Below are positions 10,504 to 52,029 of a stretch of 64,000 nucleotides of DNA, in pieces. Made by a program: the position numbers and the translations under genes. The DNA comes from Tubiluchus corallicola (lineage: Eukaryota; Priapulida; Priapulimorpha; Priapulimorphida; Tubiluchidae). The first letter of the stretch is position 1. Each line of letters opens with the position of its first letter. The notes beneath the pieces were generated by a model that saw only the letters and a program-made list of their open reading frames with translations, did no database searches and had not been told where the DNA came from. Where the stretch lies: contig JAQGDQ010000127.1 in NCBI GenBank assembly GCA_030141605.1, forward strand, positions 496,001 to 560,000. Direction: 5' to 3'.

Positions 10504-10686
10504 CTGTTTGCAGTCAACGCTGCTTGACAAAAACCCTGTAGCAAAAGCTATATCCAAACTCAAGCCATCTAAAATTCTCTCACGTGGAACTGACCATAAA
10601 TGTCTAGTAAAGAGTATAATAGGAGTTGATAAATCTTGATTACAAATGGATGCCGCTCCACCTTCCGTGCAATGTCTCGCCGCTTC
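10504..10686 (-). CDS. Probable 61-codon exon of the minus-strand gene
   Basis: On the minus strand the acceptor GAGTTTCCTTGTGGCAG precedes a 183-nt open stretch starting EAARHCTEGG, containing LWSVPRERILDGLSLDIAFA and ending VDCKQ. Composition is protein-like. The donor CAG|GTTCTT is weak; if it is not used, the frame runs on to a stop at about 10456. No family recognised. Exons linking it to 17740-17818 were not found, so membership of the same gene is inferred from strand and position. Confidence 0.5.
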
Positions 10687-17818: not shown

Positions 17819-20746
17819 CTCTCTTCAGATGAATTATTAAAAATAAAAGGCAACGCGGTACATTGATGAAACGAGAAACTTTGACAAAATATTTACAAAT
17901 GTAATGTATTACAACGACCGAATACAAAACGTTAGTTAATTCAAAATATCAACTTTCATATACTGTATACAACTAGATGTATACAATTATAATCACTATT
18001 GAAGAATGTAAAAGTTGATTGTATCATTTGAGAGATAGATGTAAAAGTTCTTTTACAAAGGTCTATTATAGACGGAGGCTATACTTCTTGTTTTCATTTT
18101 TAAAGAATGAAATTTAATAAAAAGCGGTTGCAACTGTCATCGGCTTAAATAATAGCTTATAGTTTCGAATTAACGCGATGAAACTGCTGCAAACAAAAAA
18201 ATTAAAAAATAAGTGTATCAATAAGTATCTGTATCTTCGGAATAAAAATGTTGACGATAAATTGAGGACGACTTGAAACTGAAGAGGCAATAAATAAATT
18301 AACATGCGTATTCTCCACCTGAAGTAAACCCATGAGGATGGGAAACTGAAGGAATCGACATTACGACAGCTCAAAAAAACATTAACCACACAAACAGTAA
18401 AGTTCAGTACAGAGGTAGCTCACCTTGCAACATCGTTTGACCTACTAAAACTATTTTTGAAAGCTTAACCTGACAAAAACGCCCAGCAGCAGTGAAATGC
18501 CACGTGAACTCCAACTTACTTCGGTGAGAATTTTTTCTCAACAACTAATGCTTACATTCGGCAGGAGCCAAGTGAAGGAAGACGACTAAAGTGGCTAGTT
18601 GGAACTGAGTGTATCATTGCGCGGGCGAATGTCGCATAATTATGTACTGAGTGAAACAGCCTGGGTAATACATAGATCACAGAACGTCAACCAAACAGTG
18701 GTGGTCCACCTCGCAATTTCCATTCAGACCCGCTGTATTTTTGCTATAACTACTTTTCAATTGCTGGCGCCTAGACTTACTCGCAAGCTCAACGACATTT
18801 ACATGTGAAGCGCATAATACACAGAGAAAGTGTGTATTCATGATTGTTTTTACTTATTAAATTCATTAAACAGCAATGAAAGAGAGTATAACATGTGAAG
18901 TGTTTTGCCTGGGGCATATGTAATATGAATGTTCGGTACCCATCATTCAGCAACATGAATAGTTCAACAAATTCAAAATTAATAAAAATCCTGCTGTCTG
19001 CTCAAAGTTTACCCATTTTGTTATTGTTTTATTGTTATACTGCTGGTTACATGTGGAAATGCGGCGTGCTACATCAAAACTTAACGCAGTGGAATAATAT
19101 ATTTGATCATATTTCAGATATTATACTGTACAGCATAACATAAGATTTCGTTCGTTGCGTATGGCTATATAAATAAACACTAGTCTGTACATTTTGCAAT
19201 TATGAGTACAATGTGATTATAATATGAGTACAATCCCATAATACTGAAATAACTTGAGTTGACTTAAGCGAATTAACTAACGTTAAGTAATATTTAAAAT
19301 ACTCAGAAGGGAAATTAAAGGTCTTACGATGCAGACAATTAAAAGTAAAATGCTAAATGTTGCACAATTCCTCCTGGAATGCAAGCAAAAGAAAATCTCA
19401 TATATCCAGTGAACAGACTAACTGGCCAGCCTCTCAAAACTCAATAAATTACAATTCATTGGCGAGCATCACGTAGACGAGCATTGTCATTAAACCTGTA
19501 AATGTTGGCACATCAAATTTGTAAGAATTGGGTCAAATAAAAAGTCCTGCTGTGATTCCGATTTACGACATAACCTCTAGAAAAATGAATTGCATTGAAA
19601 GCGATTAAATGAATCAACTTGGCTCGAATAGACACAAAATTACAGGATTTGTTATGCTATAAGAGATACAGTAAATCCATATTATTGAAATTAAATACTA
19701 ACGAAATGAGGACACTACAAAGCAGTATAAAGCAGTTTCAGCCAACTAGCACCTTTATCAAATTTACTTGAGTTTTATGACACAATTTGCCAATTTTGTC
19801 TTACATTGATTTTGTTTTTGCTAAATTACAAATATTTTTAATTAATTAATTAGTATCATTTAATAAAAATTTATGCAACACTAAAAAAACCTAACAACAA
19901 AGACAATTATCCCAAAGTGACAGAAATAGAAGGCATAGTAAATAAAACACAAATAATTATAAAATATTATATTACAAATACAGTTACCAAAAGTATAACA
20001 TAAATATGGGGTATCTTCCTCTTCTATTTAAAATGGGTTACCTGTGTGAGATTTCGTAATTTCAACCAGAACGAGATTTCACATAAGGCCAGGACAAACT
20101 GATATTACAGAATTTGTAATACGCAGGCTGAGGAACGTAATATAAAGTACTTTGTACAAACCAGATCGGATTCAAATTTCAGATTGAACCACTCTGAAGT
20201 AATATATACCCTGGTCCAGATATAGCTTTGTGACTAGTAACAGCTTTATACTGCCGAATATAAACTCTTGATCAGACAAGTCACAATACTTTCTATACAT
20301 AATCAGACGCGGCTAATTATTAACATGATCCCATTAGAAGTTTTTTCAATTGAAAAAGTCATCATTCTCGCTAATAACACAATCTTGAAAATTATTGCTG
20401 GAATTAGCATTATCAAAGAACTGGATTATAGGACTCAACTCTTTCCCAACTAAGTCGATTAATATTTAAAATACATAACTCTGTGCAAACTATTTTAATC
20501 TAAAAGCCAACAGTATCTAGATATGACTAGGATCTAAGTCCTCAAATCAGGACACTGTTCCGGCCCACCTCAATTTCACATTTTGAGTTTATAGGCCCAC
20601 AATCCCAGATTTGTAGGCATGTACTCATTTACTGTTGAATGCTGATACAACAATGTTTTTGCCAAGTCATAAAATTCTAAACTTCACAAATCAGTTAAGT
20701 CAAGTCCACATATGGAAAATTTTATTTTCAAATTTATGTTATTTAC
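17819..20746. other. Presumed intron of the minus-strand gene
   Basis: AT-rich with no recognised repeat. A possible 18-21 nt micro-exon around 18425-18445 (minus strand, donor GTGAGC) is noted but not supported. Confidence 0.4.
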
Positions 20747-20935
20747 CCTGGATCTTTTCTTCAGTCTTTCTAACAACTTGGCTGCAGGATAAAGGAACTG
20801 CTTGCAGAATCCTATGGTGTTGCCCTCGAAATCGTTGTTAAGCAAGTGCTGCAAACAGGCAGTAATTGTAGCTAAAGCTGGAGCCGAATACAGAGGTCCC
20901 AGGACACGCTGGGCGTGACTGTTCAAGTCAGATGC
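20747..20935 (-). CDS. 63-codon exon of the minus-strand gene
   Basis: The clearest exon of this gene. On the minus strand the pyrimidine tract and acceptor TCTTTTTGTTTTTTAG precede 189 open nucleotides, phase 0 at both ends, closed by donor GTAAATAAC. The peptide starts ASDLNSHAQRVLGPLYSAPA, continues with ITACLQHLLNN and ends KLLERLKKRSR, a pattern of amphipathic helices. The other two frames hit stops within four codons. The family is not recognised. Confidence 0.8.
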
Positions 20936-23236
20936 CTAAAAAACAAAAAGAAACGGTTATATGCTACCAAATATTAATGCTTAAATCATATATTTAAAAA
21001 TGCAAACTTTACAGTTTATTTACTTTTACAACTCAAGATAATACTGCCGTATTGTAGGCTATTCCTAATCCTACACTAACAGCTGTCAATCTCCATGGAC
21101 AACATTGAAAATTGACAGAATTTCTGGAACCTTCCCCTATGGCGCAGGCTACCAAGGGAAAGGAATAAAGATGAAACGAGTCTAAACATAACATGTCACC
21201 ATATAACAGAAATGACGAAATAACATACGTACACGTCGTACATGGCCTGGTCTGGTAATAACATCAAAGTTTTACATGCATTATCAAATTAAGCCCAAAG
21301 AGCACGCCTTGTTTCCAAAAAGAGCAAAGCCATAGATTCAACTTTCTTCTACTTTTCAGTGAGTCATACAATGTACGATTGCACTGTATCGCCTTTAACA
21401 AAAGCTTTGCAACTTAAGGCCTCGAATGCTACAAGGGTGAAAAAACAGCGTGTCATGTGAGCCACAGAGAAAACAGAGATGTACAAATGATAACTACAAT
21501 ATCTTACCGTGAGACCTGTCATTATTCACATGTAAAACTTAGCTGATGTCCAAAAGATTAACAACATTCTGCGCGTAGGCGCAATCGCTAAATCACCCCT
21601 GACCCAACAAAAGCACAAAGAAAGGCATTCCTATCCAAAAATTTCTACAACCACCTGCATGAGTCATTAATTCCCAAACAGGAAAGGCCTTAGGCTACAA
21701 ATAAAACTCATGCAGAAGATAAAAAGTTACGGTTGCCATGGAAATATGGAGGTTAATTTGGTAGGCCGAGTTTCTCATCAATCCTATTAATTCCTGACAC
21801 CATCATCTGATTCAAATAGGGACAAAATAAGATGAACAGAAATAAAAAGTTGGAAGTCACGCACGTTAAAACAAGAACTTATATAAAAGAAGAAAAATAC
21901 ATGATCTTTTCTTTCCTCTTTTTTAAATGCTATACACATGTACTTCATGTGATATACTCAAACACCCAAACTGATACACTCAGAGTCTTAATGTTTATAT
22001 CGTCTCACAAAGACTCGCCTCACACTACAAATAGATGTAATCACTTGACGGGGCTTCCTGACATTACATTCAAATCTGAGCTTTCGTTAATCTTTCATGT
22101 AAGGAAGTTGTGTTAATTCCGAGATGTAAATAAATACCACAGTTGTCCCTCGACTTTTCTGGGTATTAATATCAGATTTACGGAATTCGGAAGGAAGCGA
22201 TAATATAGTAAGCAGTAACCTGTTTAACAATACAAGAGTTTGGACAACTATTTTTAAAAAAACGAAAAAATGATCTGTCATTAGTAAAATAATGTTATCT
22301 CGTTAGACAGTTCACTACACAGTACACATCCGTATTCATATTCTAGGCAAGTGGATCTTTCTATATCGTGATCAGTTTATTTAGTACTGGGAATCATTAA
22401 CTTGGGCCGTTGGGCGGACGGCTGGCCGCATTTTCTCTCGAAGCCATCGATATTGTCACATTGCTATACATAAACAATGGCTTTTTCAGGCTGGCGTAAA
22501 TAATACGTATGGATAAACGATAAAGAGACAAAGTGCCGGTGAGTATTGAATGGCTTCAGGCGGAGCACTCAAAGAGCATTCGTTATGCTACAAAGCAGCT
22601 GAATGTCACTGAAGATAAACGGTTACTTCAGAGACTGACAGTTACTGTACTAATCCATTGAATACTATAGTAAGATCCAGCTAATAAACGAGTGTAAATG
22701 TATTTCTAGATCTAGTTTTATGACGTTCAGAATTTCTGCCTGAATTAAATTAAGTTTAGTCATAATTTGAGGAGCAACTGGGGATGTTATTAACATAATT
22801 ATGATATTATTTCACGCTCAGTCAAGCCTTAAGGTAAATAGGAGACTCAGGAGAATTAAACTTAAATTGCACAGGGATTGACAGAGACGTGTTCGCCATT
22901 GCTTCCAATAAAGCCTAAATTCAGCAGCAGAGAAAACTTGAAAGTAATTTATAGCAAATACAATTTTATCTTGAAATGAGTATTGATTTAAACACAGTTC
23001 TCAAGTATACTGTAATAATCCACTTTCGACGCACAAGTTTTGTTGTTCCGAGAATGAGTTGCTATAATACTTCATTTGGTAGCCTCTGACAGCCATTTTT
23101 CACAAATTTTGCTATTTAGTTACACGCACATATAAACTTATGAATACGAAATGCATGAGTTGGGTGTTCATCAGAATTATTTAATAACTGATAACTACAA
23201 TAAACGCAGTACCACGAATACATTCACCGCACTCAC
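20936..23236. other. Intron of the minus-strand gene
   Basis: AT-rich. No repeat recognised. The donor-like sequence at about 21507 (minus strand) has no phase-compatible exon. Confidence 0.5.
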
Positions 23237-23276
23237 TGATTTCTGTTGCGTGCCGAACATTGAATTTGCAACTTGC
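23237..23276 (-). CDS. 40-nt exon of the minus-strand gene
   Basis: Minus-strand acceptor GTGTGGCAGTCTAG and donor GTGAGTGCGG enclose 40 nt. Joined to the previous exon, which leaves CT, the first G completes CTG (Leu) and the rest reads QVANSMFGTQQKS, ending in phase 0 exactly as the exon at 20747-20935 needs. Confidence 0.65.
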
Positions 23277-23547
23277 CTAGACTGCCACACATTTTCAAAC
23301 GGATAAGGAAGTAAAATTTAAAGTTGAAATGAATAATCCACTAGTGTGAGTCACAGAATAAATATTAAACTGCGAACTGGGCTGTTTGCGAATAAAATAG
23401 GTAGCTAAATTAGCTCTCAGTAACCAGAAAATGCAAACCATTTCATTAACAATATCTATCCCAATTAAAATTCAACGTACTGGAAGAGAATGAAAAATCC
23501 AATATGGTCAAGCTTATAATAGGGAGGAAAGTTATGTATACGATGCA

Positions 23548-24530
23548 CGGTAAAATATGACACAGGTAAAAATGGAGTAGGAAAAAATGGCACAGTAAAA
23601 ATGGCCTAGGAAAAAATGGCACAAGAACAAATGCCACAAATGGAAAACTATGTAAAAATGGCACAAAAGTAAGTAAATGTGTCGCATGTTATTTTGATGC
23701 AACTGATTTCTAGAATGCGCTCAGTAGGAAGCAGATTTCTGCCAAAGACAAACAATCCTAAACTTATTCGTCTGATTTTTTTTTGAGAAATAAATTTAAC
23801 ACAAAGATAAACAAACATACAAAAATGTACAAGTGCTGGTATTATATAGACTAGCAAAAGACTTACAAAATATTTGTTCATTAAATAGATTTGTAATTAA
23901 TAATGCACGAATATTCCACATAGCGTTTACCTACCTTTTAACCATTAATTTTGGTGATGGTAATGGACTGACAAATATATGCGTATTTACATTGCACGTA
24001 CCAAGTCACCTTATAAGGCTATACCCATTAAAGAGCAAAGGTTATAGACAGCGTTACACAGCTTTACAGAAACTCGTAGAACTTTGTTTGTCCAAATGCA
24101 GATAACAAAAAAGAAGTACTAAACATTCCGTTTGAGTGTCCACAAACGTTACACAGCTTTACAGGAACTCATAGAACTTTGTTTGTCCAAATGCAGATAA
24201 CAAAAAAGAAGTACTAAACACTCCGTTTGACTCTTCCAGAAAGTGCTCAAAATGTTTTTGTATGTGGTATTCGGTCAAGTTTTGCGAAAAAAGAATTTGA
24301 GAAAAGATTTCCATTTTGGCAGACTAAAACAACCAAACAAACTGTGCGGAAGCATAACTACTTTGGCAGAGGCAAAAATAACTAAAATAATTATCCCCCA
24401 CTATAACACTAACCCTAAACACATATTTTACTAGGTGTGTCATTTTTTCCTGTGCCACATTTTTTACCTACTTTTCCATTTGTGCCATTTTTACCGTGCC
24501 ATTTTTTTCTTATGCCATTTTTACCTACAT
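23548..24530. mobile_element. Foldback element with inverted tandem-array ends
   Basis: The left end (about 23548-23665) is an array of GTAAAAATGGCACA-type units. The right end (about 24434-24530) carries the same array as its reverse complement (TGTGCCATTTTTAC). Tandem short repeats forming long terminal inverted repeats are characteristic of Foldback-type, non-coding DNA elements. The middle holds a 95-bp direct duplication and no gene. It lies in an intron of the minus-strand gene. No target duplication was identified. Confidence 0.6.
24053..24230. repeat. 95-bp tandem duplication
   Basis: GTTACACAGCTTTACAG starts at 24053 and again at 24148. The two units are almost identical for about 83 bases, with only a few substitutions, so the duplication is recent compared with the surrounding repeats. 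Confidence 0.85.
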
Positions 24531-25401
24531 TATTACGACGTATGCGTAAGTGACGTCACGCATGGATATAATCATATAAAATGTTACAAAATTCACAGGT
24601 ATGTGTTTCTTTTTGAAAAAATGATTAAATGATCACAAAAATCGGCAGTAGTAGTAATGTAACTTAAGTAGCAATAGCAATAATGTAAGTAGTGCTGTAA
24701 TGTAAGTTTTGAACAATCTGTTAAGTTTGATAACTACAGAAAAAAGAAAAAAAAGAAAAAAACAAGCCATTTCAGGTGTGTCTTACTTAGTAGTCAAGGA
24801 GTATTACTTTTTAGGGTCTTTATTGACTAGCAAGTGCAGATGTGTCTTTTCGTCGGTTACTGATTGGCACCAATTTAATAAATCTAGAGAATGGTTGAAA
24901 TATTTGCATGGTTATGGAAAGATGTTGATTTTTTTATTAGTTATTGAAACTTGACCAATAGAACGACTCATTACTTCTTGTCTGGTGTATATTTAGGTTT
25001 ACCCTCTGTCAAATGGTGCATATTTTATGAAAATCTGGTAAGATGTTGTACAGTTATTCACAAACAAAATTTAAAAAGCACTGTATAAATAACTTTTTCC
25101 TTTGGACATTGTACGTTAATGCTGTGTATGTTTGTGCGTAAGGCAGTAGTTCTGTAGTGCTCAGACCACATATCTTGACGTCCATTTTTCTAATGATCGT
25201 AAAAATGAAATAAAAGGAAAGGAGTTCAGAAAGTGAATGCATCACTAACTGTATAAAGCTAAAAGCCCTTTCAACAAGTAGCTATCCAGAAATTAAGAAT
25301 TCAGTTTAACATCAAAAAGACGGATAGTGAAAAACGAAAATTGGAAAAAAATTATTTATAAAAATACAAAGCTTCCATTTCTAGAGAAGAATACAACTTA
25401 C

Positions 25402-25448
25402 AGCCCTACCACAGACTCAATCAAGGTGGACGCAATATAATCTGCGGA
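25402..25448 (-). CDS. 47-nt exon of the minus-strand gene
   Basis: Minus-strand acceptor TACAATAGGTAATTCAG and consensus donor GTAAGTTG. Only one of three frames is open: SADYIASTLIESVVG plus two bases (CT) carried to the next exon. It begins in phase 0, matching the exon at 30353-30384. Confidence 0.65.
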
Positions 25449-28400
25449 CTGAATTACCTATTGTAGTATCCAAATGGGTAAATTAGTTTGGTGAATGGTG
25501 AAAATTAATTTACCTTTTAAGGTAGTGTTACTATGGACTGCGTGTACACTGTGCGACATAACGAAGGTCTGCAATGTAGTGTGTAGTGATTTAAACAAGG
25601 TTATTTCCCAATTCCCGGGGAATTTTACATGGCAACGCCAAACATTCACTATAAAGCGGGGCGCATATCAGAAATTTTTACAAAAACATTGAATGTTTTC
25701 GTAATTAAATGTTTTTGCAAATCAATAAACCGAATCACTTTATTTGGATCTTTTTTGCACTGATAGTCTTTCCCAAATATTTGCGTATTTGTTAAGCTCG
25801 ATTTTTGTCATGTATGAATGATCTCTGTTTTGAGGAGAGGCTTATACGTTTCATTCAATACACTACGGCGCAGCTTATCTCTGACCATTTATGATTACGT
25901 GCTCACATTATTATTGTTCTCAAAGGGAGAGGGGTCAGGGCTATTGTACTGTACGCATTCACAGTGGCTGCTCGGATATTAGCTACACTGAAGAGTATAA
26001 GTCATGAAAGCCTTACATAATTTATTTTAAGAGCATAACCCTTTGCCCTTACTGTTTGCATTCACAGAGTGCTACAAGTATGCTTGTACCAATCGTAAGA
26101 AAACACAGTACAACTAGGAAAACGCGTGAACTCACGCACACACACACAGGCATATATAATATATGCGCTTATGTTTATCTATTTGGAATAATAACATCAA
26201 AGTATTGTTTTACTTGATATCAAATGTGATATTTTACATTTTATGCAATATTCTACATTATAAACACACATATCTCATTTAGCGTTTGCCACAGCAACAC
26301 GACACAGGACGTATCTTTATGATACATTTTACTCCTCTTCCTCCCCCACCCCTCAATCCTTTGTGAAGAACATGTGTAACTGTGGTGATGACAACAGCTG
26401 AAGTAAATGGACAGACTGGACAGCAGATGAAGGTTGAGACTGTACTGATTTGATCACTAGCGAGTACTGAGCAGCGTGAAAATCTCAAATGAATCCGAAG
26501 AACGCTACAGAAGATGGGCATTACAAACTACACGAAGCTCAAGGACAGAGAGATAAAAAAGCCAGTCTCATCAGAGTGAAATTGATCAAAGACATCTCTC
26601 AGCAGCATAGCGTCTTTGATAACGTACTTTTACAAATGAGACTGTGTGATGGATGTTTGGTTATCGTAAGTTGCGTTTTACTCTCCGACTATAGGAGGTG
26701 GTGTTTAGTAAATTCATTGAAATGAATTATCAATTTACTCTTCCAAGAGCAATTAACGCGACATTGTACAATTGTTCTGCAATTCATAAAGCTAAACGCA
26801 ACTCCGGAGGACATTTCTGAGAAGACATGGGACCTCTATATTTGCTTTTAGTACCAACAGGTTGGGTGGCTTGCGTGCAGTCTGAGCAACTTTTGTCATG
26901 CATCCGTCCAAAAGCAAGTCAAGTTCAACACCTGCATAGGGATAACCACACAACACAATAGGAGTGCAAGTACAATTGAATTTGTTTGCAAATGTTCTGG
27001 TAAGCTCTTGCTTGCAGATAAACAAGCTATTTATCAGTTTGCTAGTTGACAGTGTCCAAGCCCCTAGACAGCAACTCACTGCTAAACCGTGCTGTTTTCA
27101 AGAACAAAGATGATAGAATGAATCAGCTATGGTATTTGGACACACTTTGCCCAAGCATTCCCCTACCCATGGTCCTGTGACTTATCAAAAATCATTAGGT
27201 TTATCTTTACGACAAACAGATTAAGAGGTCTTGAACTACACTCCATTGTTAATATAAGATGCAGCGAAAAGTAGAATACCAAATGCCACAGACAGCATAA
27301 CCACTGCTTCCTACTCGGTCACCCAGTGCCTCCTTTCAAGAACAAGAATAACAACAGCAACAACAACAGCAACAACAACAATAACAACAACAGCATTTTC
27401 TCTCTATAAAAAGGATAAATTTAAGAGGCAAAAATCTGTTAAGATCAATGGCATAAGAAACTTAAAGGCTAATTCTGAGGGTTTAACATTCAACCTATAT
27501 GGTCGTCCACAAATTGACTTGAAGACGTTGTACACAAATGAGACAAACAACATGTTGTAGTTAAACACAAACAGAGAGTTTTCAAGTACCTCTGTAAACT
27601 AAACTGGTGCAGATTCGGTTCAAGAAACAAATAATTACAATTCTGACGGGAAACATGCGACTCAAGCAGCGCAAACACATGAAGAGATTTCAAGAACGTG
27701 AGTTATCCCCGATTTGTATACTTACTGCACAAAAGTGTACATACAGCATACCATGTACAGTTTGCCGCTGGGCTAACTACAACGTACATGCTTCAGAACT
27801 GTTATAATGACTAATCAAAGCTTACGAGAAATTTATCATTTTACTCCTAATATAAAATTTAGCAAAGTTTATGAAAAATCGAGAATCTTCAATTGACGGG
27901 CATTCTAAACCAAACAACTGTTAATATAATTCTATCTGGTTGAATTAAATTAACATCCTATTGACTAGCTCTCAATTCGTAAGCCTATGAATCATGTGTC
28001 TCGTACAGCTTTCTACTTCAAGAAATAAAAAGTTCATCAAGAAATGAAACGTACGTCTACAACTATTTGTGGCTGCAAATTTCAAAACAGTGCCTGTTAA
28101 ATTTCACACACTTTCAAATTTAGAAATATTTGCATATTTGCCCAGGTTAAAAAATCATCTGTTCTAGTGAAGGAATAAAATTTATAACTTGTAATTATTT
28201 ATAAAAGCACAGCTATTTACATCAATGCATGCAACACACATGATACAATTAAGCGAGAACTCTGTGACAAGTGTTTTAAATGAGTCAAATGTGCGACTTG
28301 TGTGTATAAACTCGAAGCTGAAAGCTCAGAATACACTATCAAGTTAGGAAAAGGTGCTCCGAGAAAGCGAATAGGCCTTGTAACATTATTTTCATACAAC

Positions 28401-30352
28401 TACAAGACTTAAGTGTTCACATGATTGGAACACCTTTAAACGGCATCGGAATTATCACTTTACATTAAAATATACCGGTACCAATAGGCTAATAACTATT
28501 ATTATACGAATCAACATTTTAATTACATCAGCTAACTACAAAACCAAACTTTAAAGAAAGTTAGACAAACATTAATTCACTAATGATTAGCTTAAAATAC
28601 CATTTATGTTGCCCTGGCATGTGTTCTTTGCATTCCAAACTAACGCTGATAAATTCGCTTGTCGGAGAAAACTGTAGAAAGAGTCACAACAACTTCTACA
28701 CTATATAAATACAAGCATCTGTTTCAGTGATTACAGATTACTGATGGCGTGCGGCCACTTCGCTAGCGTGGCAGTGTGTACTGTATGCTCACTCAGACAA
28801 CTGGAACATGCCATTATCGACGCAGAACAGGGATGAGGCATTGTCTGCGCACTCAGATATATCAGAGTGAGGATTTTCCTTCTTTACCTTTTACTCTCTA
28901 CAAGTTTATCACATAAAGTTGCGACGTATCACTGATAGACTTTGGGCACAGCTTTTAAGTACGATACGTCGTGTCAACGAAATTTAAAGTGTTTCTACTT
29001 CAAAGGTAATTGCCATTTTTAGCATTTAAATAGAAATTCGGTTTATGGAGCATTTTACACCAAACTATTTATTTAATTTTGCCCGAAACCACAAACTAAC
29101 GTGTAACTACTGAAAGACAACATTCATTGTAACAACTTTCATTATTACAGGTTAGCTGAGATAGGCTCGAATGTACTTAAACGAAAAATATACTATTTAA
29201 AAAGCCAGTTTGTGAAATTATTTGGTTTCAGTAAAATTATAGGCTTTGTTCTAATAATTCTGTTTTGACTTATTAGATTTTCACAGAGGAACATATTTAA
29301 GCTTGCATGAACAGACTAAGGAAGCAATTTAAAATAACTTATTTTCTTGTGTTTTATAAATTAACCGAAAACCATAATCCGTTTATTAATAAGTCACAAT
29401 AAAAATGACTACATTTTACCATTCTACTTCGGCCTGCACGGATTCTAATAATAAATGACTTGGCGTCTTAAAGTAATCGTGCCAGAAGCTAAAAAGTATT
29501 GTATAATTAGTATCAACTATCAATCATAGTCCACCTTTCTATCATACCTTTTGTATTTATCTATCAAAACAAGCAAACAAACAAATCAAACGGGCAGTGT
29601 GGTTTTGTTTTTAAAATTAATGCATTCCAAATAGCATTATTCAGTCTTCTCTTTTATATCTATGTACCAATCGTGCTTTACAATAAATGAGCAACAAAAA
29701 TATTGAGTCTCTCTTGCTTTTAAACATACGAACATCAAGCCTGCGATGTATTTCTCTCTATTAATTGATCATGTGCTCGTCTGCAGGATTTATTAATTTT
29801 TTGTATTTTACAGTTTACGGAAATGGAATAAATTTGATTGTTACACTCCATAAACGACCCTTATATCGAGTGCCCAAGTCACATGTCCCAATGCTATCTT
29901 GTAACTATGTTTATAACAAGAAAAATAGCGTAAAATTGGCTAATATTACATTGACGTATAATATAAGTTTTGGCCACATTTGAATTCATGTTTACTGTGA
30001 AGATCTCATTGAGGTTTATAAAAACTGGCCAGAAAAGAAAACATTTTGTTTTGTCCTTATTTAAAGTTAATAAAACAGGGCTTTTTATCTAACTTGCAAA
30101 ACCATAAACTAAACTAAACTGCGTATTTTCTTGATTGCATAATGGTTTAATCAGCAAATCATAGATGTAAACATTGTGCGTTTCTTCCTATAAACAAAAC
30201 TAGACTATATATTTCCACTAATTCACTTTCAATTTCAATTGACAGTAATAAAATCTAGAACCAGGCTAATATTTCTCCCGCTAACTAATGATAAGTTGAG
30301 CATTTTTCATAACAGTGTTAGACAGAGCTGTAGCTAAATGTCCCGAACGTAC
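25449..30352. other. Intron of the minus-strand gene
   Basis: About 4.9 kb, AT-rich, with a (CAA)n microsatellite. The minus-strand frame at 26792-27079 was examined as an exon and not accepted. No transposon recognised. Confidence 0.5.
27341..27394. repeat. (CAA)n microsatellite
   Basis: Imperfect ACAACAGCAACAACAAC array of about 50 bases in an intron. Confidence 0.85.
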
Positions 30353-30384
30353 CTGCTGCAGGGGTGTGTGAAATAACTTGCACG
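30353..30384 (-). CDS. 32-nt exon of the minus-strand gene
   Basis: Minus-strand acceptor TTTTTGTTGACTGCCCAATCAG and donor GTACGTTC. The first two bases (CG) complete GCG (Ala) with the G left by the exon at 30781-30866; the rest reads CKLFHTPLQQ and ends in phase 0. Confidence 0.65.
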
Positions 30385-30780
30385 CTGATTGGGCAGTCAA
30401 CAAAAATGATTGACATTATATTAGACGTCAATTATGGAAGGATTGAATATGATGTGCAGTGTAATTCTATTCTGCAGGGTGTGTGCGCTTAATAAGATTT
30501 TGGCCTGAAGCATTTGTGATTTGTGAAAGTGTTTAATATAAATTTTGAACATAATTGGAGAATAAAAATTAAGATGGTCTTCTTAATTACAAAACAACAA
30601 ACAGAATCACGCATAGGCAAAATAATGGTATGAAAATAATTTATGCCCCTGCCCCCTTGCCATATAGCATGGTGATGTAGCATACGCACAACGAAAGTTA
30701 CAACAAAAATATTTAACTGAACACAAACAATAATTGTGAATAGCTGTTCTACATTTCAACGTGTATATGAATATACTTAC

Positions 30781-30866
30781 CGACAGAAGCCTTTACGGTC
30801 TTAAAATTAACATGGGCCAAATTAAGCCTCTTCGGCAACTCTTGTCTCACAATAATATGGATGGCA
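30781..30866 (-). CDS. 86-nt exon of the minus-strand gene
   Basis: Minus-strand acceptor GATTATAAATAATTTAGCCTACAG and consensus donor GTAAGTATA. One frame is open: after the first base it reads AIHIIVRQELPKRLNLAHV, continues NFKTVKASV and leaves a G. The other two frames contain stops. Incoming phase fits the exon at 35601-35635. Confidence 0.75.
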
Positions 30867-33109
30867 CTGTAGGCTAAATTATTTATAATCTAATAATACT
30901 TTAATAATCATGCCAGACAATAGACACAAACCCAGGAATCCAGCAATCACTGAGCAATGAAGCTAACTTCTTGGCCATCGGGAGTTACTCTGTGGCCAAA
31001 TGATTTTATGTTTCCTTTTCGTACGTTATTCGAGCTTATGTAAACTAGCAATGGGTTTTCATTAGCGAACAGCGATGGAAAAATGATGATAACGAGCTAC
31101 AGGCGCGACCCCACAGGGTCAGCCTACCAAGTTCTAAATTTATCATATTTTCAGTTAAAGCTGCTGTTGTTACTACATTTAGTACATTTAATAATTTCTC
31201 CAGCAACTTTCGAGCAAGCATTTACATTCAGACATGCCCATGAAAACAATTCTTACCCGAGGCTTACAAATGTTTGATTGGGGTGATTGCTCAACAATTT
31301 TTAATACCGTGATATAGGCCTACTTTCGAAACAGATCACTAATGGTCAGTAAAACAACAAAAATATACAATAGAGATTGTGTCTATATCGTCAGTAAGGG
31401 CAAACGACAAATTTTTCACAATGAGTGAATCTAGAGTGTCGCGACATTTGCAGTAATTTAATGCGTTAGATACATAATCAGAACACCACCCTCAGTACCA
31501 TAGCTTCTAGGCAATAAATTTGCCAGGGTTGTGCTGCCATCTATCAGCGGCGCATCTAACTAGTTGAGTAAAATTCGCAGCCTCTTGAAAACTGATAACC
31601 AGTGCGTATGTGTCGGGTTTGGGTAAATCTAAGTTTGTTTCCATTAGTCTGAGCGTTTGGTCTATCCCGTGGAACAAGTCAAAATTCACAGCACAAAACT
31701 ACAAATGCTTTCAAAGCAAAGTACATGTATATTGTTTACAACGCGGGATCTACACTATACTTCAAATTCAAAAACGATTAAATGTCTAATGCTACAGACA
31801 CATTGGAAGCTTATGGTTACGTTGCACTAGACTTCAAAATTCTCTAAGTCCTGCAAATTAAAAGTAGTCTATTAATAATTTATATAATACAAAGACGAAA
31901 ATCTGTTCATTTTGTCCGTCTTTTATGCGCGTCCATCCATGGTCATGCTACAGCTTACCCCCAAATGCAGGGTGTGCAGTAAGAACCAGCATTGCCCCAG
32001 AAGGTTATAAAAGGTCAATTTAGATCACCACCATGGCGGCGTAAAAATAGCACTTTGTAGAACATTCTTTTGTAGTCGTCCATTGTTTTATTAAAGGTTT
32101 TAGGAGATCTCAATTTGGGCCATACCCACGCCTCACAACCGATGTCCAAAAATCAGTCAGTCTCAGCTAGTTATAATAAAAATAAAAATAACAACAAAAA
32201 AGAAAATTCCGCAATGACTTGCAGAATCTTAATACTGTTGCACATTTTCGGTTTACTATGGCAATGCAAAGTTACCTGGGGGTTCGAGTGCGACACAGGC
32301 AAACAATAGTATTTCTATACAATGGCACATTGCACACCTGGTGTCAGCAGACTTTGCAGACCTCCACCTGTCAACGACAACTGGAAACGACACAGGTAGT
32401 AATCGGCTGTTAATGAACGTGGTGTAGCATGAAACATTGGAATTATCGCATTTTCAATCATCATGAATTCTAATAAAATGGACAAAATCACATTTTCTTT
32501 TAACATATATTGTAGAAACAGGCTTTTACTTTCACTACGATGCATTAGCACACGGCTATCAGCAGGGAAAAAGAGTAACTTAGCTTTCTAACGTAATCTT
32601 ACGTTTAGCAACGTTGCGTTTTAATCGTAAAATGATTAGGTATCCTATAAATTTTAAATAAAGATTTGTTTCACCGCACATCAGGTTCAGCACGACATAA
32701 GTAACCTATAAGCAGCTAACCACAAACATAGTGTGGTTAGAAATCCAAAAACATTATAATCTAATATCTTTGAACCACTAATACTAGTATAATATTAACG
32801 TAGACAGCAAATTTTATAATAACACCAGTAAAAATTCGAATTACACTAAAATGTCACCGCTTATTGTCTCAAAAGACTATAACTACGCTGTAATTAAGTG
32901 TACAGTATTCAGTTTATCCGGTAAGCCTTCGAAAAAAATTTTACAGGACTGACAAATCAACAGAAACTTTATCATGGTTCAGAATCGCACACCTAGATAA
33001 AATTGTACAATTCTTACAATTGTACAAATCTTAATAATTAAACTCTTTAGTCACAAATAAAAACGCTAAAATAAAATAAATGACGTTAAACGAAATTTGA
33101 ATTTCTTAC

Positions 33110-33129
33110 CGATTGCAGGAAGTGAACAT
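33110..33129 (-). CDS. Possible alternative first coding exon
   Basis: On the minus strand an ATG opens MFTSCN plus two bases, followed by a good donor (GTAAGAAATTC). Those two bases (CG) join in frame to the exon at 30781-30866, giving Arg. It could start a shorter transcript. A GCGCATGCGC palindrome lies about 240 bp upstream on this strand. Support is only the donor and the phase match. Confidence 0.2.
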
Positions 33130-33369
33130 TTTACGTTAAGAAACTAGCTAGCTACAGTCATTTAAAATCATAAGATCATAATGAGATCATAATGGTATTA
33201 TAAGAAGTGTGAATGACGTTATTACATCATAATTTTGAACAGTGTATGCCAAACAGTAAGCAAGGGTGGGTTATGAAAGGTAATTCGATCGAAATACTAT
33301 ATAAAACATCTGAGAGTTACAACAAGATTATTATATTCATTCATCATACCACTTTCAGTTAACAGCTTG

Positions 33370-33379
33370 GCGCATGCGC
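33370..33379. promoter_or_regulatory. NRF1-type palindrome GCGCATGCGC
   Basis: A perfect match to the palindromic binding site of the NRF1 family in animals, unusual in this CG-poor stretch. It sits upstream of the possible alternative first exon of the minus-strand gene. Function is inferred. Confidence 0.3.
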
Positions 33380-34105
33380 TTATGCCGATTCTGACCGAGA
33401 ACGTAATCCTTCATAAGCATTCACCTTCGCCGCATAAAACAAACATGAAGGTATGTGATTCCAACCCAAAACTGGTAAAATAATCCCTATTCCACGTATT
33501 CCATTAGAAAGTCTTTTCACTAGAGATCATCTCACCGTTACACAGTCAGCTATCACTCATGATGTACCGCAGTCGAATGAAACCGTTTCACATTACGCGG
33601 GGATAGAGGCGTATGGGTAATCATTTTCACATTAGCCAAGGTAGACAGCCAGCCATCGCTAACGTGAAGAACACCTGCTCATAGAACGCAGTGGTACATG
33701 ATCATTGCGCACAGGAAATGAAGTGAAAATAAGAGTCAATTTCGCGTTAGAACAAAAGCAGATCGTATTATAAAAGCCTTGCCAGCCAGTGGGCATTCAT
33801 CAGTTAATGACCCGAGACCTAGCAGATAGGACCTGACGTACTAACTGCAGAATGAATCTGAAATTCACAGCTGTACAATTTCGACAAATCTTATATGTAT
33901 ATACAGTCTAATCAGGCGTCTCTCTGAGCTTAGCTCTAGCAAATAAAAATCTAAATTTACCCTGGAATTTTCCGTTAAAAGTCTATCCATAGGTTACAAC
34001 ACTAAAGTAGTTCCAAAATTTTGCTTACAAATTCAGTTTCGATACTTAACAGGTAGCCATTTCACTATTTGAGTCGTACTGGTGAACACAGTCAACGTTC
34101 TGAAC

Positions 34106-35571
34106 CAGCTGTTTTCAACCAGTGGTCCATGAACCGCAAATTACAAAAGAACCTTTGTTTTCTTCTTCTACTTTTTTGTGAATATAAGCGAGGATTCTGT
34201 CAAAGAGTAGAAAATTATATAAAAATAATTATTTCAAGAAAAACTTCATTTTTACACAATTCTCGTTGCGTGCCCTTTATGTAATACTTGTACTGGGAGC
34301 ATCGTGCATATTTGCCCAAAAATGGCATAATGGTCCGTAATGCGTCTTGACGTTTTCTCCTAAAGGCCGACTGGGCCCCAGGCCGAAAGAAGTTGGCAGC
34401 TCTACACCATTCCCACTTTCGAGAGAAACTGTGATGGCCGATGGCTACACCAGCAAAAACGAAAAAATAAAAGTTTAACTAAGCTGCGTGGCTCATCTCT
34501 CTTTGTGTAAAAAATCTTACAATGTTTCTTAATTTAAAGTATTGCTTTTGTTAGCCACTGATCCGAATATAAAATTTGTTATTCAGTTCGACAAGCCAAG
34601 TCGAGCCGGGTATTACAGGTGAAGGCACATTTACTGAATACTATCTGCTGACTTCAAAATTTCGTAAAATGGACAACTCATCGTTCTTGCATGTCAAAAA
34701 GAGCGAAATTTGGAAGCCACTATATATTAATTGTTTAAAACTTCCCAATTGTGCAATAATTTTTGGGTTGCTCTCTTGCTGAATAACTCTATAAAGAAGT
34801 TTATTTCGCCATGAAGTCCATGATGCCGGTCTAGTTGGCACTCTCGTTGTTCATATAATAAGTTTTACACAGTTTTATATCGTGAAATCACAACAAAGTT
34901 ATTCCGTGTTCTAATTTTTTAGAAAAAAACGAATTCATGAAAACGGTGGATAATGGTCTAAGTGACATATATAGGCGGACGGCAGAAAATACTCAGTAAG
35001 CAGCTATTCCAATATTTCGCATTCCGCTTTAGTTATGTAACACATAAACAGACAAATAGAAAGAGTTTTTAAAGGTCAATCTAGAGTAAAAACTTGAAAG
35101 TTTCCTATAAATATATGCAGGTTCTAAGTGTTTAAAAAACTGTCTTCGCATCCATATGTCGCTGATACTTTTTTACTAAATTAGTAATCTCCTTCTAAAA
35201 CTGTGAAACAGAAACAAGACTCCTGCGTAAAAAAAACACATAGCCTACTAAAGCTGTGTGATTTGTCATGAAAGAAAATCATGAATGAATGAAAGAAAGA
35301 AAATTTTGTTTGACATGACAGCAAACAAAATCAATGGTCTAGTAAGTAAACGAAGTAAAATCTGTATTGGAAAACGCTCGTTCTTTGTGTATTCAGTAAT
35401 ACGATTTCCTGCAGATTACGTACAAACTGTAAAATTGTATAATGCAAATTGTATATTGTGTAATATTCGAGTAGTTCGAGTCTGCCAGTCTATGGTCCCA
35501 ATTCTACCCTTGAAAAGTCAAAATTGAAAATTCTTCCCTTGGGGGATGGTCATCCCGGTTGAGAACCACTG
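34106..35571. mobile_element. Probable non-autonomous hAT-type element
   Basis: The left end CAGCTGTTTTCAACCAGTGG and the inverted right end CAGTGGTTCTCAACCGGG match well and resemble hAT termini of the CAGTGGTTCTCAACC type. The 8 bases outside (TTCTGAAC and CATGAACT) do not match, so boundaries or integrity are uncertain. No transposase domain is seen in the roughly 1.47 kb. A related right end lies at 59885-59968. The right end is within 30 bp of an exon at 35601. Confidence 0.5.
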
Positions 35572-35600
35572 CATGAACTAAACAGACTAGGTCCGCTTAC

Positions 35601-35635
35601 TGTTTTCGTCTGCAGATAATCTTTCTGAGCTCTTT
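35601..35635 (-). CDS. 35-nt exon of the minus-strand gene
   Basis: Minus-strand acceptor TCAGTTACTGTGTCGCTCAG and donor GTAAGC. Phase 0 in; reads KELRKIICRRK and leaves CA, which with the T of the next exon gives His. The intron before it is only 61 bp. A second acceptor a few bases on (GAGCTCAG) is possible. Confidence 0.6.
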
Positions 35636-35696
35636 CTGAGCGACACAGTAACTGACATAAATATTATTGTTGCTCGGGCAATTATCCATAACTTAC

Positions 35697-35762
35697 TTGT
35701 TGTTCAGAAGCGTCTAATTCTTGGTCTTCTGCTGTTTCTTCCAACTTTCGATAATTAAACAA
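35697..35762 (-). CDS. 22-codon exon of the minus-strand gene
   Basis: Minus-strand acceptor TTTTTTGATTTTTACAG and consensus donor GTAAGTTATG. Only one frame is open over 66 nt: LFNYRKLEETAEDQELDAS then EQQ, phase 0 at both ends. Acidic, predicted helical. Confidence 0.75.
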
Positions 35763-36782
35763 CTGTAAAAATCAAAAAATATTTGGGAATTTTTTGCAAC
35801 ATCTCATTAACATTACATAAAAGTGAATATTATTAATTTGGAACACTTGTGTTTGCCCCGGTCTATTATAGGCTTTTAATAATCATACTAAGTACTTGCA
35901 AAATAAATATTGTGTGCAGTTTTATACAGTGTTACCGTGTGGGCAAGTGCGCCATGCTTGACAGTATGCTTGGCCGACAGATTCTTGCCAGAAACTAGAA
36001 AACATTTCCCAAATGTTAGGGTTATAGTCGTCTGCGTCTCTGAGGAACTATATATGTTATTAATGACATGTTGTAATTCGTTTTATTGCTGAAACCTTCC
36101 AGTCTTGGATAACGGTACATCGACACAGAATAATTATGTCGAATGCCAGACGGCTTGCTTGGTGCAACTGAAAGATAGCTCCTGCTTTAAGCTCTAAATT
36201 TTTTATTATTAAAATCATAAATTACGAAAGAAAATTCCTCTCAAAGTGGAAAGCAAATAAAATTCTTAAGATGCTAGGGAGAAATACTAGACGCTGAACA
36301 GCTTGTCAAACTGACAACGTGGTGATGATTAATCAGTAACGGCAGTTTACAGGGATAATATTCCATGCAATAAATGTAATAAAGACTTTCAAAACGTGCG
36401 GATGTGTCGATGAGTAACTGTAGCGCCATTACTTATTCTCAATCTCCATCTGTTCTTGCTGAGATCATAAATAATTATTAAACTACACTGTATCTTCTCA
36501 GACATTGTCACATATGACATCTGCATGGTCCTGATGAATTAACAATGATAAGCTTGTATTACAAGATTATTAAAGGGGGAGAAAACGGAATTTTATACTA
36601 TGTCTCAAAAAGCTTTACGTGTAGAGTTACATTACTTAGTACAACACTTGTCTGTTTGAAAGACATGTAACTGAAAAAGAAAATTTTTAATAATTTAACA
36701 TGTTCGCGATAGTTGGTAAAGCGTCACTGATTCGCAGTCCCAGTGTGCATCAAAAAAACGTCATTGATTCAACAAAACATAC

Positions 36783-36826
36783 CTTATTAATCTGAAGTGA
36801 AGAGGTAAAGTGATTTATACTTTCGT
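36783..36826 (-). CDS. 44-nt exon of the minus-strand gene
   Basis: Minus-strand acceptor CACCTTACCAACTAG and donor GTATGT. The first two bases complete GAC (Asp) with the G left by the exon at 38023-38120; the rest reads ESINHFTSSLQINK and ends in phase 0. Confidence 0.65.
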
Positions 36827-38022
36827 CTAGTTGGTAAGGTGCGTGCCACGAATGCTCTACGCACTGTTATTTAAACACTTGTTTCAAACGGCTTAACGTC
36901 AAAATGGCTGTGCCTAACAATCACAATGCGAGCTTAAACTTTCAAGTTTTATACAGTGAAGTTGCTAATCAAGCTCTGTGCGCAATAAGACAGTATGCAG
37001 GTGATTTAAAATTTCAAGACGAATTTTTTTAGTCTATGTAAGTACAGATTTATGTTGTCCTTTAAAATTACTCAAAGTGCACCTTGTTATCAAATTGTTC
37101 ACGTCAATCGTTGGCGCTACAAACAAATTAATGACCGCAGATTTTTTGGTGTAACCACGTCACGGAATGGCCAAGTGATATTAATGATAGAAATTTCAAA
37201 TTTACTAATTAAAATGCTGATCAAAGCAAATGATGGGTGTAAGTGAACTGTAGGAATCTTTATGGCCGCTACCCTGCACGTTTGGTAGTCAATCAATGTA
37301 TTCTATAATTATAGACATTTTACAGTCAGAAATGACCCTGCACTCTGCCAACTAGCTTTCAGCGCTTATACTTTCACTTGACTCTGCTTGACATTATTAA
37401 GATGTATAGGAAAGGAATCACCATTTGTAAAGACAGATATTGCTCCATAAACCCAAATACTAAACAGTTCTACTGTGCGTATAGAACGCTACGTTCTAAG
37501 CGACTTGAATTGTGGAAACTTTCGCTGAAATGAAAGCCAGTCTAATGTAAATATGTAAATTAGTGAAGGTGTGGTACTTTGAGAAGCGTACCTACTTATT
37601 ACACGCTTGGTGGACTTTTACAACACACCTCACTGGTCCTTTCTACTCCATGGTGAGAAACTCAAAACAAGAGAAAATCTAACTTTACAATTGAGATACA
37701 ATAAACTTAGAACATCTGTAAGAGTATTAATCCACTTATTTATTGCTGAGTGAAACGCACACTGAGAATTTAATTACAATGCAAAGTGATTCTTTGTGGA
37801 TACTATGTGGAATCTATACTATATCGAACCCGCCGATTACCTATTAGTTTAATGACCAGCTTTAGTGCTGTTCTTAACTTCTGCCACCAAGTACACGCCA
37901 TGACCACACGGCTATTTATCCATGGCCATATAATGCATAAATACCGCAGCGTCTTGAACTGCTGCCAGAAGCTGTTTTTCTGTGCAAAACTCAATTAACG
38001 TTACGTATACGTGGATACTTAC
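36827..38022. other. Intron of the minus-strand gene
   Basis: About 1.2 kb, no recognised content. Confidence 0.5.
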
Positions 38023-38120
38023 CATAACTTTTGCTAACCTGAAGAATACACTCCACGCCATTATTTTCAAAGGCAATGATATTCAAAGTCAAAATTTGCG
38101 GGAGCGTAATTCTTGTTTGG
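38023..38120 (-). CDS. 98-nt exon of the minus-strand gene
   Basis: A consensus donor (GTAAGTATCC) ends an open stretch reading QTRITLPQILTLNIIAFENN then GVECILQVSKSY, leaving a G. The acceptor (CATTGAAACAG) has a poor pyrimidine tract, so the 5' border may be off by a few bases; another AG lies 9 nt inside. An in-frame stop upstream limits how far it can extend. Confidence 0.65.
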
Positions 38121-40779: not shown

Positions 40780-41203
40780 AAGCTGTTTGAACGGAAATAG
40801 TGAGTCGAAGCGTGCGATACATCATTCGGATTCGCCACGAAACGTAAAATTTAATACATTGCGTCGAAATCGCGAGCCGCGTTTCGTTTATCCAGAAAAC
40901 GGCGATAAAAGGGATGTCCGGTCGAAAATTTTACATTCAGTCTGTTGTCATTTTCGTTCTACGCTTTTTAGCTTCCGAGATACGCTTCCTTTTGGAATAA
41001 CTCAAAAATTAAGTAAGGCTGCTTGATCAAGTCTTGGCGCATGTAGCCAGGGTAGAGGGCCATTTTATCCTATAATTTCGGGTCTTGGCCTTTTGACCCG
41101 GTTAAGTTATAGTCCAAAAATCGTCAAAATTTGTCCATTTTTGAAAAGCTATCATTGCCACCTACCCAAACGGAAAAAACAAGTAAAGCACCATGTCTTG
41201 GCT
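40780..41203 (+). repeat. Direct repeat of about 420 bp, copy B
   Basis: Second copy of the repeat at 40030-40460, same orientation, starting about 750 bp later and diverged by substitutions and small indels. Its end abuts the LINE 3' fragment that follows, so the repeat could belong to that element. Confidence 0.8.
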
Positions 41204-42100
41204 AATGACGCGTCATCAACCACGCTGACAATAAAAAATTCTATAATCGAACAAACTCATAATGTTAAATTTTTGGGCATACTGGTAGACAATAAATTTT
41301 CATCGGATGAACACTTTAATAACATATACACAAAAATAGCATCTAGCACATCATATATCCGACAAGTTAAAGGGCAACTAACACAACAAACTAAGATACT
41401 AATACACAAAACTTTAATACTACTACACTTCTTATGTGGATGTACACTACTTCAAAAAACAAAAGAGAAAATAACTTAAAATTAAATATCCCTCAGAACT
41501 ATGCAGTGAGATTGATAGCTGGGTACTCATACAAACATAAGGCAGGTAGACAAAAATTCAAAACTTTATCAACTAATCTAAGAAAAACTTTAAAACTTCC
41601 AATCACTGAAGCACACAAAGAATATTTTGCTCTGCTTTTTATATTTAAATACATTAACAACATCAGAAAACTATTTCAAAATAACAGATTCAGCTTTTTT
41701 CTAAATCCTATCGTCAATTCCAGAACAAGTAATCTAAAGCAAATTAGGACAAATACCCAGTATGCAACCAACTGTGCAATCAAGCAAGCAATTCTACTTT
41801 GGAATTCTCTACCATTACATGTTAAACAAATCAGCGTTTTAAAAGCAAATTAAAATCATTAATATTAACTAGATATGAAATACCATGACACCAGTACGAC
41901 AACAACTAATTCAGAATTTTTATATGCACTGCATATTAATTAACTAATAATTTTTAATTCTTGTGAATAGTTGTAAATACGTTTTATTTTTATTCGAAAC
42001 CAGTGGTTTCGATTGCACTGACACATTTTCCTTTAGCAGTGTAAGTTTTTCTTAACTAACACTGATTGGTCATCTCTGTAAAGTCTTTATATGTATTTAA
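41200..42100 (+). pseudogene. 5'-truncated LINE: C-terminal end of a reverse transcriptase protein
   Basis: Two overlapping plus-strand frames (to 41479 and 41434-41853) hold the conserved region after the RT core of non-LTR elements. The first has NVKFLGILVDNKFSSDEHFN, the YLG-type motif, and IYTKIASSTSYIRQVKGQL. The second has NYAVRLIAGYSYKHKAG, ALLFIFKYINN and ILLWNSLPLHVKQI near the C-terminus. A frameshift near 41440-41470 separates them. About 150-250 bp of AT-rich 3' sequence follows. The order matches CR1/jockey-like elements. The fragment is inactive: it lacks the endonuclease and catalytic core. Confidence 0.8.
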
Positions 42101-45901: not shown

Positions 45902-47242
45902 ATGGCACCATTATCAACAAAAATTATTGATTTCTCTGTCTATGATATTAGATTTCCCACATCATTGGAACAACATGGATCAGATGCAATGCACACTGAC
46001 CCTGATTATTCATGTGCATACGTAATTATATCTACTGATGATGGCACAAAAGGACATGGCTTCAGTTTTACAATAGGTAAAGGTACAGATATAGTAGTGA
46101 AGGCTATTAAAGTACTGGAACATTTGTGTGTAAGCAAGAAAGTGCAAGACATTTTTAATGACTTTTCAACATTTTGGACAAAACTAACTAATCACACCCA
46201 GTTGCGATGGGTAGGTCCAGAAAAGGGTGTGATTCATTTAGCAACGGCGGCTATAATTAATGCATTATGGGACCTTTGGGGAAAACTTGAAGGCAAGCCT
46301 GTGTGGAAACTTTTATCTGACATGACATCAGAGCAAATTGTATCACTAATTGATTTTCGGTATCTGACAGATGCTTTAACGCCCCAGGAAGCTTTAGATA
46401 TTTTAAAAGCAAATGAAAATTCAAAGCAAGAAAAAATAGAATATCTAAACATGTATGGGTACCCTGCTTATACAACAGCAGTGGCATGGCTTGGTTATAG
46501 TGATGAAAGAGTAGAAATACTTGCAAAAAAAGCTCTAAGAAATGGTTGGACTCGATTTAAAGCAAAAGTTGGTGTTAGCGTAGAAGATGATGTCAGGAGG
46601 TTAAAGAAAATTCGTGAAACAATTGGCGAAAAGAATGTCCTTATGATAGATGCAAATCAGCGTTGGGACGTTGACGAAGCAGTGAAATATATGCAACATT
46701 TACTCCCATTTAAACCTTTATGGATTGAAGAGCCAACATCTCCTGATGATGTCTTAGGCCATGCATTTATAGCTAAAGCTCTCAAATCTTATGGGATTGG
46801 AGTAGCAACAGGAGAGCAATGTCATAACAGAGTTATGTTTAAACAATTTTTACAAGCTGAAGGCATGCAGTTTTGTCAAATAGATGCCTGTCGTCTTGCA
46901 GGGCCTAACGAAATCATTGCAGTGTTGTTAATGGCTAAAAAGTTCAATGTCCCTGTTTGTCCGCATGCTGGTGGAGTTGGTTTGTGTGAGCTTGTTCAAC
47001 ACATGTCATACTTTGATTATATTTGTGTTAGTGCTTCTATGGAAAACAGAGTTGTTGAGTATGTTGATCACCTACATGAACATTTTACAACTCCAACAGT
47101 AATCAAGAATGGTTCTTATTTTCCACCTAGTGATCCAGGTTATTCGAGTGAGATGAAAACTGAGTCCATACTCAGTTATGAGTATCCAAATGGAAGTGTA
47201 TGGCAGCATTTGTTTAAAGAGGGGAAGTTCAGACCAACTTAA
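45902..47242 (+). CDS. ENOSF1: L-fuconate dehydratase-like enzyme, enolase superfamily (ENOSF1 type), intronless
   Basis: A complete 446-codon frame, close to the length of animal ENOSF1, with a G at -3 and a G at +4 of the start. The protein has the enolase-superfamily layout: an N-terminal capping domain to about residue 180 and a C-terminal barrel with all expected active-site residues. These are the KxK pair K220/K222 (FKAKVG), metal ligands D250 (LMIDANQRW), E276 (WIEEPTSPDD) and E305 (ATGEQ), and the D328/H355 pair (QIDACR, CPHAGGVGLCE). Bacterial relatives dehydrate L-fuconate to the 2-keto-3-deoxy acid in fucose breakdown; the animal protein is thought to act the same way. There is no obvious N-terminal targeting peptide. 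The striking point is the absence of introns in an otherwise intron-rich region, suggesting an old retrocopy or intron loss. No frameshift or stop disrupts it, so it is probably functional. Confidence 0.95.
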   Translation: MAPLSTKIIDFSVYDIRFPTSLEQHGSDAMHTDPDYSCAYVIISTDDGTKGHGFSFTIGKGTDIVVKAIKVLEHLCVSKKVQDIFNDFSTFWTKLTNHTQLRWVGPEKGVIHLATAAIINALWDLWGKLEGKPVWKLLSDMTSEQIVSLIDFRYLTDALTPQEALDILKANENSKQEKIEYLNMYGYPAYTTAVAWLGYSDERVEILAKKALRNGWTRFKAKVGVSVEDDVRRLKKIRETIGEKNVLMIDANQRWDVDEAVKYMQHLLPFKPLWIEEPTSPDDVLGHAFIAKALKSYGIGVATGEQCHNRVMFKQFLQAEGMQFCQIDACRLAGPNEIIAVLLMAKKFNVPVCPHAGGVGLCELVQHMSYFDYICVSASMENRVVEYVDHLHEHFTTPTVIKNGSYFPPSDPGYSSEMKTESILSYEYPNGSVWQHLFKEGKFRPT

Positions 47243-51849: not shown

Positions 51850-52029
51850 AGCACCAATGGCAGTAGCTGGATTAAATCAAAATTTCTATATAAAGAATGT
51901 TGTTGTACCATTTGAAGAGGACCAAACCCATGAATTTAAAGGTCACCGGTGCTTGTCAGTGGATGAGCTGCCAGGATTTGCTTTTTTGAAAGATGAACAT
52001 GGCCAAATGAGCAGAAAGCCAGTTTCCAG
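51850..52029 (+). CDS. Schlafen-like gene, first recognised coding exon
   Basis: Acceptor CACCATTTACAG, donor AG|GTACTTG. ATG at 51857 opens MAVAGLNQNFYIKNVV and leads to the conserved EEDQTHEFKGH. The frame is also open back to the acceptor (two residues, AP), so translation could begin in an earlier exon. Ends in phase 2. Confidence 0.85.

Follow-up and report, generated by a model that had tools for sequence, protein, structure and literature searches.

Among described gene kinds, the closest to the locus considered here are the taxonomically restricted (orphan) small protein genes of animals, which share with it small size, few exons, the lack of a Pfam family and a single copy found in the genome. 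The locus lies on the minus strand of a 64,000-nucleotide stretch of the genome of the priapulid Tubiluchus corallicola (hereafter the window: assembly GCA_030141605.1, contig JAQGDQ010000127.1, positions 496,001 to 560,000), in a span from 38120 to 20747 that an initial annotation had read as a single nine-exon gene of unrecognised family. Likenesses to named proteins are weaker. The best Pfam match of the firmest exon, 20935-20747, is DUF7071 (PF23257), over 20 residues at E 0.026; with 14.7 bits at best against a curated cut-off of 27 bits, and only positions 3-22 of 68 covered, it is on this evidence not a member. The C-terminal part of the yeast exocyst subunit Sec5 (PDB 5yfp_B) aligns weakly over 31-46 residues at E 0.15 to 0.36, which is not significant, and Sec5 has 971 residues against at most about 104 here.

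Some real coding sequence is probably present on the minus strand of 38120-20747, and in this respect the coding-like exons proposed earlier are supported; a nine-exon gene probably is not present. Small orphan gene(s) of an ordinary kind, though of a family we cannot name, are a plausible account. We give roughly even chances to a specific form of it, in which exon 20935-20747 would splice into a short terminal exon, 19373-19353, the upstream exons belonging to the same gene or else marking two genes or two 3' ends. If true, this would add one or two small genes of unrecognised family to an invertebrate genome.

Probable coding exons on the minus strand

The DNA read comprised the minus strand of 9000-38700, plus 20 kb to the left and 7.8 kb to the right of the window, and searches of the host's own genome covered the 2344 contigs (343.5 Mb) of its assembly. 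All open AG...GT intervals within the span were taken as candidate internal exons and scored for splice sites, with generic weights, and for coding, with a frame-aware model built from 25 coding sequences (36.9 kb) of the same genome, namely open frames at kinase loci and the enolase-like gene of the window. Acceptors were ranked among the 4579 AGs, and donors among the 5241 GTs, of 84 kb of minus strand. Two yardsticks of chance were used: Firstly, DNA simulated at the same length from an order-4 Markov model of the local sequence (300 simulations, or 200 for the compact gene described below); secondly, 253 kb of real comparison DNA, drawn from the antisense flanks of kinase and myosin genes and from other parts of the region. 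On myosin exons of this genome, the splice scoring found an acceptor-donor pair at 17 of 20 loci (none at L034, L038 or L042), with medians of 2.0 for acceptors and 2.5 for donors and a coding value of 0.043 +/- 0.037 bits per nt; the medians keep L030-L033 despite implausible acceptors, and two of these, L031 and L032, seem to be copies. Acceptors and donors of the proposed gene score within or above the range of these exons. All exons below are on the minus strand and are given in the direction of reading.

The firmest coding exon, 20935-20747 (exon 3), spans 63 codons, with phase 0 at either end and one open frame. Its acceptor at 20935 ranks fifth of 4579, its GC content is 0.481 against 0.358 and 0.322 in the adjoining DNA, and no exon as long and as well scored occurred in any of the 300 simulations. 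The donor at 20747 is fair, ranking 156th of 5241. What the initial annotation took for the end of its gene is thus a donor, and 1.4 kb downstream, at 19373, lies the best acceptor of the strand (first of 4579), in the phase that 20747 needs. The terminal exon proposed there, 19373-19353, lies outside the span first annotated, begins in phase 0 and encodes EELCNI followed by a stop; its coding part yields 0.9 bits, so that the argument for it is the acceptor. An exon that ignored the donor at 20747 and ran on until the stop at 20684, an extension worth -1.2 bits, was set aside as possible and not needed.

Upstream, exon 35762-35697 (exon 2) is 22 codons long, with phase 0 at both ends, a coding likelihood ratio of 14.7 and a donor that ranks 28th of 5241; an internal exon scoring as high appeared in 5 of 300 simulations. 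The proposed first coding exon, 38061-38023, reads 13 codons from an ATG to a phase 0 donor ranked 18th of 5241, with an in-frame stop 7 codons upstream and a coding score of about zero. The ATG at 38061 is a better start than 38120, which was rejected as an exon start: The acceptor that precedes it is poor (-1.0), and the frame open from there scores -6.1 as coding.

Within the span there is also an alternative terminal exon, 26931-26792, which ends in a stop and forms the end of a 100-codon open frame. No other terminal exon of the span scores as high (18.9), and the span's best coding stretch (23.6 bits) includes it; neither value was reached in 300 simulations. An optional small exon, 32380-32338, weak by itself (11.7), allows an in-phase join of exon 2 to this terminal exon and is picked in the four-exon gene that scores best in the region.

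One gene or two

Two arrangements of these exons may be envisaged for small protein-coding gene(s) of ordinary metazoan build, both with exon 20935-20747 spliced in phase 0 to 19373-19353. In the first, 38061-38023 and 35762-35697 would be joined directly to 20935-20747, giving a coding sequence of 315 nt in phase 0 throughout and a product of 104 residues; the total of 43.0 (6.6 + 16.7 + 11.2 + 8.5) was reached by 6 of 300 simulated regions. In the second, a gene would run from 38061-38023 through 35762-35697 and 32380-32338 to 26931-26792, with a total of 53.9 that makes it the region's best four-exon gene and that no simulation of 300 reached (the best five-exon gene scores 57.6, reached by 1 of 300). 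It would be accompanied by a compact gene of 74 residues, scoring 26.1, in which exon 3 and the terminal exon at 19373 follow an alternative first coding exon of 5 codons at 21522-21508; alternatively, 26792 and 19353 could be two 3' ends of one gene. The 104- and 74-residue versions alike have open frames, good splice sites, matching phases and a stop.

The parser, run at three exon costs, chose the first exon at 21522-21508 and put exons 2 and 3 in separate genes in all three runs, and the single 104-residue gene is for that reason not preferred over the two-gene version, whose split is further backed by the strong terminal exon at 26931-26792. From the sequence alone we would prefer neither. 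That any part is transcribed, and which exons belong together, we infer.

The predicted protein and the search for relatives

The view that the protein belongs to no recognised family has held up, with no family over cut-off in the libraries searched. The queries to Pfam and PDB were exon 20935-20747 by itself and several joins; Pfam returned no family over cut-off for any of these, nor any match for the 95-residue upstream join or for terminal exon 26931-26792, and the PDB sequence search gave no reliable match, Sec5 at E 0.15 being the best. A match of 27091-26792 to PDB 6xi3_AAA, at E 1.5e-5 overall with no single stretch passing, was treated as unreliable. No NCBIfam model, from a library made for bacteria and archaea, matched, and exon 20935-20747 found no relative among viral contigs and prokaryote genomes. 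In the host's own genome 20935-20747 was found once only, whether searched as protein or as DNA; apart from the exons, the protein search gave nothing better than matches at E 0.5 to 1.0 (one at the place of the proposed first exon). For 27091-26792, searched as protein, there was likewise no second copy. Because no second copy was found, neither stretch is a repeat; the only repeats within the examined stretches are 19013-19208 and about 27333-27399. Rfam gave no match over the whole window, and ARAGORN found no tRNA.

The helical character ascribed to the protein by the initial annotation agrees with the AlphaFold2 model of exon 20935-20747 alone, predicted from a single sequence as three helices (residues 2-12, 18-33 and 40-61) with a mean pLDDT of 74.3 and a pTM of 0.46. 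No fold stood out when this model was compared by Foldseek (3 matches, best E 5.1) or VIA-align (best Z 2.6). The 104-residue version would have a mass of 11.9 kDa and a pI of 6.1. Its first 20 residues hold 4 basic and 0 acidic residues and are followed by an acidic linker, the first exon itself being uncertain, and in a test for a mitochondrial presequence the helical moment of the first 18 was reached by 22% of shuffles. Tentatively, and with the odds somewhat against it, the product might be a small non-enzymatic helical protein that binds or assembles other proteins. It is rather unlikely that every element of a fuller picture would hold, in which an expressed, lineage-restricted small protein of a family absent from the libraries searched has its three-helix core in one 189-nt exon and perhaps alternative 3' ends at 19353 and 26792.

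Possible chance exons and partial genes

The most serious alternative is that there is no protein-coding gene here: The exons would then be open frames and splice sites that arose by chance within introns or between genes, or would belong to a non-coding transcript. Several observations count in its favour and against small coding genes. Firstly, the order-4 simulated null is lenient: The plus strand, for which no gene is proposed, likewise exceeds the simulated 95% point with its best four-exon score (44.5 against 41.3), and its best compact three-exon gene scores 28.5 against 26.1 for the compact gene of the minus strand, a value reached by 30 of 200 simulations. Secondly, the real comparison DNA contains pieces of similar quality, with 6 exons matching 35762-35697 (0.41 per span), 2 matching 20935-20747 (0.14 per span), 2 terminal exons matching 26931-26792 (0.14 per span) and 3 coding stretches as good as 23.5 bits (0.21 per span). 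These rates are rough, because most of the matching exons (4 of the 6 like 35762-35697 and both of those like 20935-20747) are antisense to kinase or myosin loci and because the loci overlap. Although L032 was excluded, several myosin loci overlap, so that one stretch may count twice, as two coding stretches both scoring 56.3 suggest, and the other parts of the region may themselves contain genes. Thirdly, exon 20935-20747 has a low coding score for its length, with a likelihood ratio of 1.6: Some 13.6% of real coding 189-nt pieces score as low, and 6.2% of open non-coding pieces as high. Fourthly, the acceptors ranked second, third and fourth fall in the left flank, where no gene is proposed, so that a top acceptor rank is by itself weak. 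Fifthly, the sole AATAAA between 19373 and 18300, at 19033, is covered by a dispersed repeat of ~180 nt just downstream of the proposed terminal exon (19022-19203), of which the genome holds 26 further matches at 68-89% identity, and the motif was rejected as support. Lastly, no relative was found in Pfam, NCBIfam, PDB, viral contigs or prokaryote genomes.

Against a purely chance origin stands the occurrence of three such pieces within one 17-kb span, for which the joint chance is ~0.006 when computed by hand from the comparison-DNA rates for pieces chosen post hoc (thresholds and compared pieces alike were picked after the data had been seen). There are, moreover, more candidate exons than in any of the 300 simulations: 50 on the real strand at strict thresholds against 25.3 +/- 7.7. 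Taking together the lenient null, the comparison-DNA rates and this joint chance, we regard the absence of a gene as unlikely, though deserving of serious weight.

A more improbable account keeps only the upstream gene, of ~95 residues, running from 38061 through 35762-35697 and perhaps 32380-32338 to 26792, and dismisses 20935-20747 as a chance frame. Among four-exon genes of the region that one, as noted, scores best, and no coding score in the span exceeds that of its terminal exon; the lack of any exon as long and as well bordered as 20935-20747 in 300 simulations argues against it, as does the lack of a Pfam match for its 95-residue join or its terminal exon.

The proposed nine-exon chain

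The nine-exon gene is not supported. As the initial annotation gave no exon borders, its claim was tested through the rarity of phase-matched chains, a test that covers internal exons only. Agreement of phase at all eight junctions had been called unlikely by chance, and this is not supported: At strict thresholds, 134 of 300 simulations contain at least one phase-matched nine-exon chain, and at loose thresholds all 300 do. The real strand has 931 such chains at strict thresholds (reached by 19 of 300 simulations) and 5.4x10^9 at loose ones, against a simulated median of ~2.1x10^8 (reached by 6 of 300). The further point that in most exons only the used frame is open is true of 28 of the 50 strict candidate exons, and being common it is not distinctive. 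The best nine-exon score of the real strand does look unusual, being reached by 3 of 300 simulations (strict) and 1 of 300 (loose). Once 35762-35697 and 20935-20747 are left out, however, it is reached by 51 and 76 of 300, respectively, and since the best chain is then ordinary, the measurable internal-exon signal amounts to two exons and not nine. Terminal exon 26931-26792, with its stop inside the span, would in addition split the chain, if it is real. A larger gene, made of the nine exons or of a chain that takes in more exons of the span and coding for one protein that continues through 20747, is for us very improbable, even though the count of candidates without those two exons is still high (44, reached by 4 of 300 simulations).

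There is a lesson of method in this. In AT-rich DNA, phase agreement among hand-picked small exons says almost nothing, whilst dropping sets of exons from a scored chain reveals the few pieces that are worth checking against RNA.

A continuation of 20935-20747 into an acceptor at 10686 in place of 19373 is likewise highly unlikely. A frame of 76 codons is open there in matching phase, on a stretch that is single-copy in the genome, but over 102 nt it scores 2.6 against 11.4 for a different frame of that stretch, and over 231 nt its score is -19.2; the intron would be 10 kb long, and the acceptor ranks 67th of 4579 where that at 19373 ranks first.

Neighbouring features

Inside the span, 23545-24524 looks like a small mobile element within the putative large intron: Its inverted arms, 64 nt long, 78% complementary and 802 nt apart, are rich in AAAAATGGCACA-like units and flank a 95-nt tandem duplication. 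On the plus strand, 45902-47242 is a single-exon gene of the enolase superfamily (Pfam MR_MLE_C at 9.4e-57 and MR_MLE_N at 1e-7), resembling ENOSF1, with two further uninterrupted copies elsewhere (64% identity for C1962, 61% for C2123). Also on the plus strand, 41027-41853 holds two open frames, of 150 and 152 residues, that overlap each other and look like the end of a non-LTR retroelement, with nothing over cut-off in Pfam, and 51850-53178 (perhaps to 61258) holds two predicted exons whose join matches Schlafen AlbA_2 weakly (E 0.00043; 21.2 bits against a cut-off of 25.3).

Two further exon-like stretches lie on the minus strand. A 680-nt frame of 226 residues to the left of the window (G000:C1805:489151-489830, L028:3151-3830) matched no Pfam family over cut-off and no PDB sequence below E 0.35; it is the top-scoring internal exon of the 84 kb, and a second good exon lies 1.4 kb further on. 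The third best internal exon of the strand, 10584-10686 (103 nt, total 18.9), is joined to nothing.

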